Shown one piece after another: positions 24,301 to 29,550 of a DNA stretch of 64,000 nucleotides. The stretch is taken from NCBI RefSeq assembly GCF_900249755.1, contig NZ_LT976854.1, positions 2,223,709-2,287,708 of the forward strand, in the 5' to 3' direction. The notes below the pieces were generated by a model that was given only the letters and a program-made list of their open reading frames with translations, did no database searches and was not told where the DNA came from. The first letter of the stretch is position 1; every line of letters begins with the position of its first letter. Made by a program: the position numbers and the translations under genes. Origin of the DNA: Cupriavidus taiwanensis (GTDB lineage: Bacteria; Pseudomonadota; Gammaproteobacteria; Burkholderiales; Burkholderiaceae).

Positions 24301-25677
24301 ATGCAGGACCCCCATCTCGACCCCGTGCTGCTGCAGAGCTTTGTCGCCGTCGCCGAGAGCGGCAGCTTTACCCGCGCCGCCCAGCGCGTGCACCTGACCC
24401 AGTCCACCGTCAGCCAGCAGGTGCGCCGGCTGGAAGAGCAGCTCGGCTGCGTGCTGCTGGACCGCGGCGGGCGCTATGTCACCACCACGCCGGAAGGCGA
24501 GCGCCTGCTGGGCTATGCGCGCCGGCTGCAGCAGCTGATGGCCGAGGCGGTGGGGCAATTGCGCCAGAGCGCCGGCCAGGGCGAGATCCGGCTGGGCGTG
24601 CCCGAGGACTTTGCCGCGCGGCCGCTGACCCCGGTGCTGGCCGGGTTTGCCGATGACTGGCCGGGCATGCGGCTGGAGGTGACCAGCGGCATGAGCCACG
24701 AGCTGTGGCAGCGCTTCCAGGACCGCGAGCTGGACCTGGTGCTGGTCAAGCAGCGCACCGGCCAGGCGCAGGGGCTGGCCAGCTGGCCCGAACCGCTGTG
24801 CTGGATCGACAGCCGCAGCCGCCCGGCGGTGGCGCGCGACCCGGTGCCGCTGGTGGCGTTCCCGGTGGGCGGTTTGTATCGCGGCGAGATGACGCACGCG
24901 CTCGACGCCGGCGGCCGGCGCTGGCGCGTGGCCTTTGTCAGCGCCAGCCTGGCCAGCATCCTGGCGGCGGTGGCCGATGGCCTGGGCGTAACGCTGCTGC
25001 CGCGGCGGCTGGCCACGGCGCATCACACCGTGCTGGAGCATGGCTGGCCCGCCGCGGTGCCGGATATCGAACTGAGCCTGCACGCGCAGCCCGACCTGCC
25101 GGCCGCCGCGCGCGACATGGCGGCGCGGCTGGCGGCGCGGGCGGCAGCGGCGGCGATGCCAACGGCCGTGGCGCGGATGCCGGCGGTGCCGGCGGCGCCG
25201 GTGGCGGATCCGGCGCGACCGGGACCAACACGGCGGGCGCGGGTACCGGCACGGGCGGCGGCGCGGGTGCCTCCGGCGGTGCGGGCGGTTCCGGCAGCTC
25301 CGGCTCGGCCGCGACCGGCGGCGCCGGCAGCGGCACGGGCGGCGCGGGCGGCTCGAGCGGCGCGGGCTCGACGGCGACGGCTGGCAACGGCACGGCGACC
25401 GGCGGTGCCGGCGGCGCGCAGAGCAGCACCGGCGGTGCCGGCGGCGCGGGCGCGGCGGCTACCTCGGGCGCGGCCAACGCGCTGGCGTCGAACGGCAGCG
25501 CCACCGCCGGTGACGGCGGCGACGGCGGCAACGGCGGCAACGGCGGCAGCGGCGGCGCGGCCACCGGCGGCACCGGCGGCGTGGGTGGCGTGGGCAACGG
25601 CGGCGCTGGCGGTACCGGCGGTGCTGGCGGCTACAACCTCGTCGACGCAGGCACCTTCAACATGTCCAACACCATGA
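24301..25677 (+). CDS. LysR-type regulator with an abnormal out-of-frame extension
   Basis: A normal LysR occupies residues 1 to about 290: winged HTH (SFTRAAQRVHLTQSTVSQQV, then LEEQLGCVLLDRG) and a substrate-binding domain ending around PDLPAAARDMAARLAAR. There is no stop at the expected place. The frame runs on for about 170 Ala/Pro/Arg-rich residues that are plainly an alternate-frame reading of a Gly-rich coding repeat (frame at 25119-25793). A deletion removing the LysR stop and the next gene's start, or a frameshift, would explain this. Its natural target is probably the divergent deaminase-transporter unit. Confidence 0.8.
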   Translation: MQDPHLDPVLLQSFVAVAESGSFTRAAQRVHLTQSTVSQQVRRLEEQLGCVLLDRGGRYVTTTPEGERLLGYARRLQQLMAEAVGQLRQSAGQGEIRLGVPEDFAARPLTPVLAGFADDWPGMRLEVTSGMSHELWQRFQDRELDLVLVKQRTGQAQGLASWPEPLCWIDSRSRPAVARDPVPLVAFPVGGLYRGEMTHALDAGGRRWRVAFVSASLASILAAVADGLGVTLLPRRLATAHHTVLEHGWPAAVPDIELSLHAQPDLPAAARDMAARLAARAAAAAMPTAVARMPAVPAAPVADPARPGPTRRARVPARAAARVPPAVRAVPAAPARPRPAAPAAARAARAARAARARRRRLATARRPAVPAARRAAPAVPAARARRLPRARPTRWRRTAAPPPVTAATAATAATAAAAARPPAAPAAWVAWATAALAVPAVLAATTSSTQAPSTCPTP

Positions 25678-25793
25678 CCAGCGTCGGTCAGACGGCGGCG
25701 GGCATCATGATGGCCAGCCAGAACAGCGGCGTGGCTTCGCTGGTGCAGCAAAGCGTGAACGTGCAGGCCAACCTCAACGTGGGCGGCAGGTAA
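25119..25793 (+). pseudogene. Glycine-rich repeat protein lacking a start
   Basis: This frame encodes about 224 residues: a long low-complexity GGAGG/GTGG/GNGG region (PGRS-like in look only) and an ordered C-terminal end, YNLVDAGTFNMSNTM through QNSGVASLVQQSVNVQ to NVGGR. No ATG, GTG or TTG in this frame can start it without running far into LysR, so the N-terminal signal region appears lost. The end resembles that of the next gene's product (QNSGSNVLIQNATIVNVQ), which suggests it was a substrate of the same export system. A programmed frameshift from LysR is possible but less likely. Confidence 0.65.
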
Positions 25794-25977: not shown

Positions 25978-26415
25978 ATGCAACCGGTCCGCTTCGCCGT
26001 CGGCGCCTTTGCCGCGGCATTACTTGCCTGGCCAGCCTTGGCCCACGCGGAGCCGCCAGGGCTGGAGGCCGCCATGGCCGCTGCGCGCGCGGAGTCTGCC
26101 GCGGCCATCCGGGCGGCGCCAGGCGACACCGCGACAGAGGCCACGCGCACACCGGCCACCTCGTTCGCCGGCGTGGCGAAAGCCGTGCCCGTGTCCCGGC
26201 TCAATGATGTCCGCGGCGGTGCCGAAGTCACCGTCAACGATATGCGCCTGCACGGCACCGTGGCCGACAACGCCGCGGTCAATACCTTGTCCGGCGCGAA
26301 CCACATCACCGAAGGCGCGTTCTCGAATGCGGCGGGGATCCCCACCGCGATCCAGAACTCGGGATCGAACGTGCTGATCCAGAACGCCACCATCGTCAAC
26401 GTCCAGTTCAGATGA
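25978..26415 (+). CDS. Exported protein with double-glycine processing motif
   Basis: 145-aa protein. Residues 1-24 are a Sec signal ending AHA. A spacer of about 45 residues leads to VPVSRLNDVRGG, with GG at residues 80-81. The mature 64-residue part is rich in Asn, Thr, Val and Ile and ends QNSGSNVLIQNATIVNVQ-FR, a beta-prone tail. Leu at -7, Val at -4 and Gly at -2/-1 match the rules for C39 peptidase sites. A G-rich ribosome site precedes ATG 25978, and the stop overlaps the peptidase start (ATGA). No known family was recognised. Confidence 0.75.
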   Translation: MQPVRFAVGAFAAALLAWPALAHAEPPGLEAAMAAARAESAAAIRAAPGDTATEATRTPATSFAGVAKAVPVSRLNDVRGGAEVTVNDMRLHGTVADNAAVNTLSGANHITEGAFSNAAGIPTAIQNSGSNVLIQNATIVNVQFR

Positions 26416-27113
26416 TGAAGCCGCTGCGAATCCTGCTGGCGTGCGTGCCGTGGCTGCTGGCCGGGGCGCACGTGCCCGGCGCGCAGGCCGCGGACGTCGC
26501 GATGTACGGCCCGGTCGGCGAACCCTACAGCGTGCGCGTCACCAGCATTCGCGAGGCGCGCTTCAAGTCCACCATTCGCCAGCAGTTCGACTTCAGCTGC
26601 GGCTCGGCCGCGGTGGCCACGCTGCTGACGTACCAGTACGGCCATCCGATCAACGAGGCCACGGTGTTCCGCAACATGTACCTCAACGGCGACCAGCAGA
26701 AGATCCGCGCCGAGGGGTTCTCGCTGCTGGACATGAAGCGCTTCCTGGCGGCGCTGGGCTATGAGGCCGATGGCTTCGAGCTGCCGCTGTCCAAGCTGGA
26801 GGAAACGCAGGTGCCGGCGATCGTGCTGATCGTCGAGAACGGCTACCACCATTTCGTGGTGGTCAAGGGGGTGAAGGGCGACCGCGTGCTGGTCGGCGAT
26901 CCGGCGCGCGGCACGCGCGCGATGTCGCGAGAACAGTTCGAGCGCATCTGGGACAGCCAGCTGCTGTTCGTGATCCACAACCGCGCCGACCGCGCGCGCT
27001 TCAACGTCGCCGCGGACTGGCGCGTCGCGCCCAGCGGTCCTTACTGGATGGGCGTCAACCGGGACAACCTGTTCTTCACGGTCATGCCCCGGCATGGCGC
27101 CGGGGATTTTTGA
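26412..27113 (+). CDS. Periplasmic C39-type cysteine peptidase (FapD-like)
   Basis: 233-aa protein. A signal peptide (cleavage near AQA, residue 27) is followed by a C39 fold without any ABC transporter: oxyanion Gln57 and nucleophile Cys63 in QQFDFSCGSAA, His146/147 in YHHFVVVKG and Asp163 in VGDPARG, spaced as in C39 domains. Bacteriocin exporters carry C39 on the cytoplasmic side, whereas stand-alone exported forms are known from Fap amyloid operons (FapD). It is flanked on both sides by exported proteins with GG motifs, its likely substrates. Starts at 26412 or 26415 (two ATGs in a row) are equivalent. Confidence 0.85.
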   Translation: MMKPLRILLACVPWLLAGAHVPGAQAADVAMYGPVGEPYSVRVTSIREARFKSTIRQQFDFSCGSAAVATLLTYQYGHPINEATVFRNMYLNGDQQKIRAEGFSLLDMKRFLAALGYEADGFELPLSKLEETQVPAIVLIVENGYHHFVVVKGVKGDRVLVGDPARGTRAMSREQFERIWDSQLLFVIHNRADRARFNVAADWRVAPSGPYWMGVNRDNLFFTVMPRHGAGDF

Positions 27114-27123
27114 GGAACGCATC

Positions 27124-28044
27124 ATGTTGCAGACTTCCTTGCCGGCCCCGGCCGTGCCACGCAGCGCCGCCTCCGCGGCCGCGGCGATGGTGCTGGGCGC
27201 AGGCCTGGCGTGCGCCGGCACGGCACAGGCCGGCATGCCGCCGCAGCCCGGGCCGCCCGATGCCTCGGCGCTGCCGTCGCAGGCAGCGATGGCCGCGCGC
27301 GAGCGTGCCGACCCTCATCCCCTGGCCGCCGCGCGCGGCGGCATGGCCGGCTGGAAACCGGTGGCGCACGACAAGCTCGACGACATGCGCGGCGGCTTCG
27401 AGATGTCCGGGCTGCAGGTTTCGTTCGGTATCGAACGCGCGGTGTACATCAACGGTGACCTGGTGGTCGCCACCAGCATTAACATCCCAGACATCAGCCG
27501 CATCACTGCCGACCAGGCCGCGCGGCTCGCCGCGACGCTGGGGCCGGCCATCGCAGCCAGCACCAATGCCGCGGTGGCCAACGCGCTGGCGGGCAACCCG
27601 GTCACGGCCGACGCTGCCGCGGCGATGGGCGCCAACGGCGCCGGCGCGGCGGCATCGGCTTCGGGCGGCGCAGGGGCGGGCGGTACGGCTTCGGCAGCGG
27701 CCAATGGCGGCGCCGCCGCCAGCGCCGGTGCGGCGGGCGGCAGTAGCGCCGCTGCCGGTGCGGCAGGCGCGGCGGGCCTGCCCGGCACCGTCGTCAGTAC
27801 CGCCACGGGCCAGGTCGTGACCAACGGCTTGCTGAACGTGATCCAGAACGGCCCGGGCAATGCCGCATCGGTGGGGGCGCTGGCGGGAACGCCGGTGACC
27901 GTGATCCAGAACACATTGAACAACCAGAGCATCCGGAGCCTGATGACAATCGACGCAAGCGTCAATACGCTGCAGGCCTTCCGGTCGCAACTGGCCAACA
28001 CGGCGCTGAACGATGCGCTGCTGCGGGCCGCGAGCATGAGATAG
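27124..28044 (+). CDS. Exported Ala/Gly-rich protein with double-glycine motif
   Basis: 306-aa protein. A signal peptide covers residues 1 to about 36 (cleavage near AQA). VAHDKLDDMRGG follows, with GG at residues 90-91, matching the motif in the product at 25978. The mature part starts with an ordered segment (FEMSGLQVSFGIERAVYING), then a low-complexity Ala/Gly/Ser region (about 175-235), then a conserved-looking end with VIQNGPGNAASV and VIQNTLNNQSI. GAGG eight bases before ATG 27124 and a 10-bp gap from the peptidase stop place it in the same operon. It may be a surface or fibre subunit; that is inference. Confidence 0.78.
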   Translation: MLQTSLPAPAVPRSAASAAAAMVLGAGLACAGTAQAGMPPQPGPPDASALPSQAAMAARERADPHPLAAARGGMAGWKPVAHDKLDDMRGGFEMSGLQVSFGIERAVYINGDLVVATSINIPDISRITADQAARLAATLGPAIAASTNAAVANALAGNPVTADAAAAMGANGAGAAASASGGAGAGGTASAAANGGAAASAGAAGGSSAAAGAAGAAGLPGTVVSTATGQVVTNGLLNVIQNGPGNAASVGALAGTPVTVIQNTLNNQSIRSLMTIDASVNTLQAFRSQLANTALNDALLRAASMR

Positions 28045-28119
28045 CCGTTAGCGAGGTAGCTGGCAGTACAGGTCGCAGGCTCCTGCAGAACAGCCTGTCG
28101 TCCGGGGGAGGAAGACGTG

Positions 28120-29550
28120 ATGAAGAAGCGGTCGATGCAGGGCATCCGCAATGCGGGATGCTCGACGTTGCTGTTGCTCGGCGGACTGGCGCAGGCACAG
28201 ACGCCGCCGGAGGCGGGGCCACCCGCGGCGGGACTGGAGTCCCTGCAGAGGGAGCTCGCCGACCAGGCCACCCAGCTCGACGCCATGAAGCGCGCGCTGG
28301 CCGAACAGGAGGCCGTGATCCGCGAACTGCGCAGCGTGATCGGCACCGAGGTGCTGGCCACCAAGCGCGGCGGGCAGCGCACCGGCCCCGGCGTGATGCC
28401 GGCCGACAACGCCACCAACGCCGCCACCGCGGCAGCGGCGGCCAGTGCCACGCAGGGCGCGCCGGGTCTGGGCAGCAGCCCGCAGCAGGTCATGGCCCAG
28501 GGGCCGCAGCCCGGCGCACAGCAGGGCGAGTCCGCCAGCCCGCAGACGGTGGCGATGGACGAGCCCGTGGGCCGTCCGCCCGAGAGCGACCAGCGCCCGC
28601 CCGAGGTGGCGCCGCTGATCGACCAGCCCGGGGTGCTCACCGGCGAGGGCAAGTTCGTGGTCGAGCCGGGCTTCCAGTACGGCTATTCGTCGAACAACCG
28701 CGTCGCGCTGGTCGGCTACTCGATCATCCCGGCCATCCTGATCGGGCTGATCGATGTGCGCGAAGTCAAGACCTCGACCTATATCGAATCGATCGCGCTG
28801 CGCTACGGCGTGACCAAGCGGCTCGAGATCGAGGCCAAGGTGCCGTACGTGCAGACCTCGGGCTCGACCATCAGCCGCGAGGTCTTCACCGGCACCGCCT
28901 TCGACAACGTGTTCAATTCCAGCGGCAAGGGCATGGGCGATGTCGAGGCCACGGTGCGCTACCAGCTCAACTACGGCAATGAGCGCATCCCGTACTTCGT
29001 CGGCTGGCTGCGCTACAAGTCCGCCACCGGCAAGGACCCGTTCGAGGTGGTCACCGATTGCGTGACGCGCTGCGTGGGCAATGCCACCGGCACCGGCCTG
29101 CCGCTGGGGCTGCCCACCGGCACCGGCTTCCAGGCGATCCAGCCCGGCATCACGTGGCTGCTGCCGACCGATCCGGCGGTGTTCTTCGGCACCTTCAGCT
29201 ACCTGCACAACTTCGCGCGCAACAACGTCAGCCGCACCGTGCTGAACGGCGAGAAGGAGAACCTTGGCAAGATCGCGCCGGGGGACATCTTCGAGTTCAG
29301 CTTCGGCATGGGGCTGTCGCTCAACGAGAAGGCGTCGTTCAGTATCGGCTACGACCAGGCCATCATCTGGCCGACCAAGCAGAACGGCCAGACCGTGCCG
29401 GGCTCGGTGCGCGTGACGCAGGGCACCTTGCTGGTGGGGTATTCGTACCGCTTCAACAACCGCTACACGCTGAACCTTTCGGTGGGCGCAGGGCTGACGC
29501 GCGATACCCCGGACCTGCAGGTCAACGTGCGCCTCCCGATCACTTTCTGA
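28120..29550 (+). CDS. Outer-membrane beta-barrel exporter with coiled coil (FapF-like)
   Basis: 476-aa protein. A signal peptide ends near AQAQ. A heptad coiled coil covers about residues 38-72 (LESLQRELADQATQLDAMK). A disordered Gln/Pro/Ala linker follows, then from about residue 165 a predicted beta-barrel with alternating strands and a terminal Phe (LPITF), typical of outer-membrane proteins. Coiled coil plus small barrel is the layout of FapF, the Fap secretion channel, and the barrel resembles the phenol-degradation MetA-like family. GGAGG stands upstream; GTG 28117 directly precedes ATG 28120. It is likely the last gene of the export operon. Confidence 0.82.
   Translation: MKKRSMQGIRNAGCSTLLLLGGLAQAQTPPEAGPPAAGLESLQRELADQATQLDAMKRALAEQEAVIRELRSVIGTEVLATKRGGQRTGPGVMPADNATNAATAAAAASATQGAPGLGSSPQQVMAQGPQPGAQQGESASPQTVAMDEPVGRPPESDQRPPEVAPLIDQPGVLTGEGKFVVEPGFQYGYSSNNRVALVGYSIIPAILIGLIDVREVKTSTYIESIALRYGVTKRLEIEAKVPYVQTSGSTISREVFTGTAFDNVFNSSGKGMGDVEATVRYQLNYGNERIPYFVGWLRYKSATGKDPFEVVTDCVTRCVGNATGTGLPLGLPTGTGFQAIQPGITWLLPTDPAVFFGTFSYLHNFARNNVSRTVLNGEKENLGKIAPGDIFEFSFGMGLSLNEKASFSIGYDQAIIWPTKQNGQTVPGSVRVTQGTLLVGYSYRFNNRYTLNLSVGAGLTRDTPDLQVNVRLPITF

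Follow-up and report, generated by a model that had tools for sequence, protein, structure and literature searches.

A widespread Fap-like operon of Burkholderiales and Xanthomonadales with a FapD-like C39 peptidase and a shared double-glycine box in its exported proteins

Genes and boxes of the operon in Cupriavidus taiwanensis

The window analysed here, a stretch of 64,000 nucleotides from Cupriavidus taiwanensis (contig NZ_LT976854.1, positions 2,223,709 to 2,287,708), carries a Fap-like operon that encodes a C39 peptidase related to FapD, a pore-forming barrel related to FapF, and two further exported proteins that we call sub1 and sub2. As an earlier note on this DNA had described, the four genes are tightly spaced on the + strand, at 25978-26415, 26412-27113, 27124-28044 and 28117-29550; the sub1 and peptidase genes overlap by 4 bases, and the subsequent gaps measure 10 and 72 bases. 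All four proteins open with a Sec-type signal sequence, judged by eye from a basic start, a hydrophobic stretch and AxA. The features are the following (aa, amino acids):

25978..26415, + strand: sub1, 145 aa, with a Sec signal, a variable spacer, a box and a conserved 64-aa C-terminal part
26200..26220, + strand: box LNDVRGG in sub1, residues 75-81 (GG at 80-81)
26412..27113, + strand: FapD-like periplasmic C39 peptidase, 233 aa, with Gln57, Cys63, His147 and Asp163 (from Pfam and NCBIfam matches, alignment and predicted fold)
27124..28044, + strand: sub2, 306 aa, FapE-like, with a Sec signal, a variable spacer, a box and a conserved part
27376..27396, + strand: box LDDMRGG in sub2, residues 85-91 (GG at 90-91), with Phe next
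28117..29550, + strand: FapF-like barrel protein with an N-terminal coiled coil, 477 aa, starting at GTG 28117 or ATG 28120
28354..28374, + strand: box LATKRGG (residues 80-86), where the coiled coil of the barrel protein ends

The peptidase matches the Pfam C39 family with an E-value of 4e-24. Its best NCBIfam matches are FapD (145 bits) and then Acinetobacter FilB (131 bits); by sequence it is thus a FapD homologue, which we do not call an equivalog because its score lies below the FapD equivalog cut-off of 330 bits. A 36-row alignment shows no variation at Cys63, His147, Asp163 or the presumed oxyanion residue Gln57, which upholds the Cys63 and Asp163 proposed previously and, of the two histidines proposed with them, His147 and not residue 146. 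The AlphaFold2 prediction for the peptidase (mean predicted local distance difference test score 80, and at least 90 across residues 51-200) matches the C39 domains of PCAT1, ComA and 6mpz, the last being a double-glycine protease whose structure includes its leader. The protein stands alone, with 233 aa, a signal sequence and no fusion to an ATP-binding cassette (ABC) transporter.

Judged in the same way, the barrel is a homologue of FapF, a pore made of a coiled coil and a 12-strand barrel: FapF is its best NCBIfam match (144 bits, with a cut-off of 700 bits), and residues 158-476 match the solved FapF structures 5o67, 5o65 and 5o68 (E 2.7e-28). The coiled-coil outer-membrane barrel of the earlier note therefore corresponds to FapF; the barrel's own L-x3-RGG box at residues 80-86 had been overlooked.

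Conservation of the operon and of the box

In a scan of named genomes, the peptidase had at least 586 relatives, and the best 80 of these define the 80 named loci considered below. They include Cupriavidus, Paraburkholderia, Burkholderia, Pandoraea, Ralstonia, Variovorax, Polaromonas, Massilia, Lysobacter, Dyella, Luteibacter, Pseudoxanthomonas and others, and the operon ranges over Burkholderiales and Xanthomonadales. Its order is fibre subunit, sub1, FapD-like peptidase, FapE-like sub2 and FapF-like pore. Sub1 and sub2 are present at the named loci, as is the barrel at 76 of the 80, some loci being cut by contig ends. Within the genus, the peptidase occurs at >70% identity in 34 of 36 genomes, C. 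metallidurans CH34 has the operon, and the order sub1-peptidase-sub2-barrel is kept in all 27 Cupriavidus loci fetched with their flanks. The co-occurrence of the four proteins, put forward beforehand as a check, and their gene order thus extend from the genus to 80 named species in two orders.

Sub1 and sub2 indeed share L-x3-R-G-G, with GG at residues 80-81 and 90-91, and in the window both follow the full double-glycine leader rule: a hydrophobic residue at -12, Leu at -7, a hydrophobic residue at -4, Gly at -2 and Gly, Ala or Ser at -1, here Gly. The known C39 site positions named at the outset (-7, -4 and GG) are among these. Over the 80 loci the rule is followed at -12 (mostly A, I, L or V), at -7 (L) and at -2/-1 (G). 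When the box was sought inside the profile-found proteins of these loci, L-x3-[RST]-GG was present in 79 of 80 sub1 proteins, the exception being one from Rugamonas with RAG, and L-x3-R-GG in 80 of 80 sub2 proteins. We also searched 300 Burkholderiales genomes blind to the box, with a sub2 profile that begins after it. This search found 23 genomes; all 23 have L-x3-[RQ]GG ahead of the match or where it begins, and a C39 gene lies within the short flank in 22. Substrate homologues devoid of RGG beside a retained peptidase had been set in advance as a refuting observation; with the box kept in 23/23, the proposal was not refuted within this clade.

These counts bear on the possibility that Gly/Arg-rich linkers contain L-x3-RGG by chance or composition. 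The proteins are Ala/Gly-rich, and in shuffled sequences the pattern arises with a chance of 0.23% for sub1, 1.5% for sub2 and 2.6% for the barrel, that is, 0.2-2.6% for a single protein. Conservation of the box is far stronger evidence than this shuffle chance: an identical box stands amid unrelated flanks, is kept over 80 species and recurs in every genome of the box-blind search, which makes a chance origin hardly credible.

The regions around the box differ sharply in conservation. Within the genus, identity is 17-30% at positions -60 to -21, rises to 73-75% within the box and stays at 60-83% beyond it, and the stretch of sub2 before the box is far longer in some species than in others. 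Since a poorly conserved spacer precedes a conserved box and a conserved following part, the segment looks like a removable leader. At two loci (L053 and L138), two or three successive L-x3-RGG boxes occur within one sub2.

The box of the pore is more loosely kept. Boxes of the form L-x3-R-[GA]-[GATR] are present in 41 of 43 Cupriavidus barrels (2.6 expected from shuffles) and in 50 of 74 other barrels of RGG-type systems (5.6 expected). In the FapF linker, Rouse et al. noted both GG/GA motifs and missing peptides (PMC5557850). Processing might then chiefly concern the pore, a cut between coiled coil and barrel opening or closing it, with sub1 and sub2 as competitive regulators or timing substrates. 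A conserved box where the coiled coil ends and the missing linker peptides would fit this proposal; against it, the pore box is less strict than that of sub2, and as such it is absent from classical FapF, where a barrel-type box occurs in 1/16 proteins. We regard such a primary role of the pore as improbable.

Relation to Fap operons and the proposed cleavage site

The closest known layout is that of the Pseudomonas fapABCDEF operon. Common to both are a homologous periplasmic C39 peptidase (FapD), a trimeric coiled-coil barrel (FapF), a fibre-type gene upstream and, encoded after the peptidase gene, a protein with an L-x3-R-G-x box that resembles FapE in this place and box. They differ in that the box ends in G-R/K in Fap and in GG in window-type systems; moreover, the window-type fibre subunit is Gly-rich and has neither the FapB/C repeats (GNxGxN..AGxxNQQxN) nor CXXC, no FapA was recognised, sub1 has no clear Fap equivalent, and the pore bears a box. 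No FapA profile was among the NCBIfam matches, and no FapA candidate was recognised in the operon. The C-terminal part of sub1 weakly resembles one FapB/C repeat (P 2e-4).

In the family searches, no Pseudomonas genome scored above the FapD or FapE cut-offs; for the classical FapE box we therefore turned to other Fap operons, identified by their match to the NCBIfam FapE profile, and to Aeromonas caviae. At classical-type FapD loci, the open reading frame (ORF) between fapD and fapF contains [LM]-x3-R-G-[RK]-[YF] in 16 of 16 cases, and two further loci have it too; the three box-bearing ORFs tested match the NCBIfam FapE profile, and the box of A. caviae FapE reads LAHLRGRY. As in sub2, it lies after the signal and a spacer and before a conserved segment. 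Among FapA-like ORFs, which were picked out by their position and an LW[DE] segment, 4/4 have a looser box, L-x2-[VI]-x-G-[RKL]; a similar pattern is found in 1/21 FapB/C proteins. Since classical FapE and the RGG-type systems have the same box, it is older than the clade, and GG is its local form. In sequence terms GG itself is clade-specific, more distant FapD systems having G-R or G-K; in distant RGG-type systems sub1 shifts to RGR, RGT, RAK or RGQ, while sub2 stays RGG. Three Cupriavidus genomes (L060, L061 and L062) have a second, classical-type fapD/fapF locus with a FapE box ending in RGK, so that both box types stand side by side in one genome.

Many positions also divide the GG-type from the classical peptidases, among them S65/A, D120/R and V or N141/D, position 141 lying six residues before His147. 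The two groups differ by ancestry too, so that a covariation of position -1 (G versus R/K) with a peptidase pocket would be no more than a conjecture.

Taken together, we favour, with a probability of roughly 0.7, the reading that the locus is a divergent Fap-type fibre-secretion operon in which the periplasmic C39 peptidase removes a second leader from sub1 and sub2 at RGG. As the signal sequences suggest, all products would reach the periplasm via Sec, and the peptidase would act there. It would recognise a second, double-glycine-type leader in sub1 and sub2 (hydrophobic at -12, Leu at -7, often hydrophobic at -4, Arg at -3 and Gly at -2/-1) and cut after GG. The predicted mature products comprise 64 aa for sub1 and, for sub2, 215 aa here and ~120 aa in many relatives. 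Together with the Gly-rich fibre subunit, they might function as nucleator, anchor or gate, either at the trimeric pore or by way of it; the pore box, which follows the coiled coil, could also be cut, or it could dock the peptidase to the pore. Classical FapE has this box with Arg or Lys at -1, and it is the sole Fap protein whose mature N-terminal region yields no peptides (PMC5557850).

Several observations weigh against this proposal. Position -4 varies over the 80 loci, being mostly hydrophobic in sub2 and often not in sub1. The tie between sub2 and FapE is modest: sub2 gives no match to the FapE profile, and a profile-profile comparison aligns 178 columns with P 4e-6 and a probability of 73%. 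The upstream fibre gene gives no FapB/C profile match, that is, classical FapB/C repeats are not found in it, and fibre formation by the Gly-rich subunit is putative. Finally, the non-GG boxes in sub1 of distant clades and in classical FapE mean that the box could be a binding site.

This last point can be developed into an alternative in which the box is a docking motif and the C39 protein a periplasmic chaperone or adaptor that holds sub1, sub2 and the pore together, comparable to the inactive C39-like domains found in certain type 1 exporters. A box common to three proteins, the pore included, would be expected of such a motif, as would its variation at -1 (R/K in FapE; R, T, K or Q in distant sub1) and the tandem boxes in some sub2 proteins. 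Against it stand the invariance of Cys63, His147, Asp163 and Gln57, and the variable spacer before a conserved part, which resembles a removable leader. In Pseudomonas, moreover, secretion depends on periplasmic FapD and on its catalytic Cys being intact (PMC5557850). We consider docking alone an unlikely explanation, and prefer cleavage of sub1 and sub2 at RGG.

A broader and more tentative proposal, to which we give slightly less than even odds, is that the FapD family as a whole recognises and cuts its targets at L-x3-R-G-x, the window-type systems having the canonical GG form of this box, and that Pseudomonas FapD would cut FapE, and probably FapA, at L-x3-RG[R/K]. Fap proteins had been said to lack a canonical C39 site; in the present clade, three proteins have a canonical double-glycine site: the pore, a second exported protein and the FapE-like protein, in which it lies at the same place as in FapE. 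Classical Fap operons have this box in FapE with one residue altered, which gives an exact, testable prediction; if it is true, the box names the likely FapD site in FapE. What FapD cuts is still an open question for Fap in openly licensed papers, preprints excluded, and a report of the FapD site may exist elsewhere; a late-2025 review still words the mechanism as 'thought to' (PMC12822426). Should the general proposal be true, a Sec signal followed by a second leader removed by C39 would amount to a general two-leader periplasmic control of fibre secretion.

Other known systems share parts of this arrangement. The Neisseria nap island combines a periplasmic C39 peptidase (NapP) without an ABC transporter, a FapF-like pore (NapF) and GG peptides (NapA-C), for which periplasmic cleavage was proposed (PMC11798529). 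By that description, to which our comparison is confined, its cargo consists of small cationic, autolysis-linked peptides, whereas the window-type operon encodes larger Asn/Gln-rich exported proteins and a fibre-type subunit. The putative FilA-F pilus of Acinetobacter resembles the window-type operon through FilB, the second-best NCBIfam match of the peptidase (131 bits), while FilC and the barrel match weakly (38 bits). The PCAT and ComA exporters of type 1 secretion have the same C39 fold, catalytic set and leader rule (-12/-7/-4/GG); in contrast to them, the window peptidase has no ABC domain and is itself exported by Sec, and the leader lies behind a Sec signal peptide and spacer. In most Cupriavidus genomes of the set, a further weak C39 match lies within an open frame of ~1040 codons, probably a peptidase-containing exporter.

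The system is thus real, widely conserved and unannotated, and its novelty lies in the site and not in the machinery. A wholly new export system is ruled out by the FapD and FapF homology, and the earlier note overstated the case in this respect, since sub2 is FapE-like and a fibre gene completes the operon. The core of that note is supported: a periplasmic C39 peptidase, a barrel and, cognate to the peptidase, two double-glycine proteins exported by Sec.

The upstream fibre-type gene and its truncation in the window

Two features lie just upstream of the four genes:

25126..25137, no strand: junction of 12 bases common to both sides, where ~6.6 kb of the sister genomes is missing (from alignment to a sister genome)
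25138..25793, + strand: 3' remnant (~218 codons) of a Gly/Asn-rich fibre-type gene

In the genus, intact relatives of this fifth gene encode proteins of ~480-620 aa with a signal peptide, directly upstream of sub1. The end segment of the protein, like GTFNMSNTMTSVGQ-AAGIM-A-QNSG-ASLVQQSVNVQANL, has a match at 79 of the 80 named loci; the absence of a fibre-type gene is thereby ruled out. The remark of the earlier note that no FapB/C-like repeat is seen stands insofar as the subunit is without classical repeats, and partly reflects the truncation of the gene in this window. By eye, the fibre protein has no leader box, its signal peptide running straight into the conserved start, and the Cupriavidus fibre proteins examined contain no Cys and hence no CXXC. 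This Gly-rich putative fibre subunit is unlike known functional amyloids, and in many Burkholderiales and Xanthomonadales the operon appears to be a fibre system that has gone unannotated.

Alignment of the window with the sister genome G008 continues up to 25137, a position inside the final part of a LysR-type gene, and starts again at 25126, so that at window 24301-25793 the LysR-type gene leads directly into the 3' part of the Gly-rich fibre gene. A protein search run without a positive control did not find the missing 5' part elsewhere in the genome. The gap of ~6.6 kb may be a real deletion, or a misassembly or collapse on GC-rich sequence.

The number of fibre-type genes varies between loci. 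Six Paraburkholderia loci (L144, L146, L150, L152, L157 and L165) have two tandem Gly-rich fibre genes, not one. In Photobacterium sp. DA100 (L109, 3066-4853), two extra fibre-like ORFs flank a sub1 with SRGG; they have a CC pair, and their C-terminal part resembles the Gly-rich subunit.

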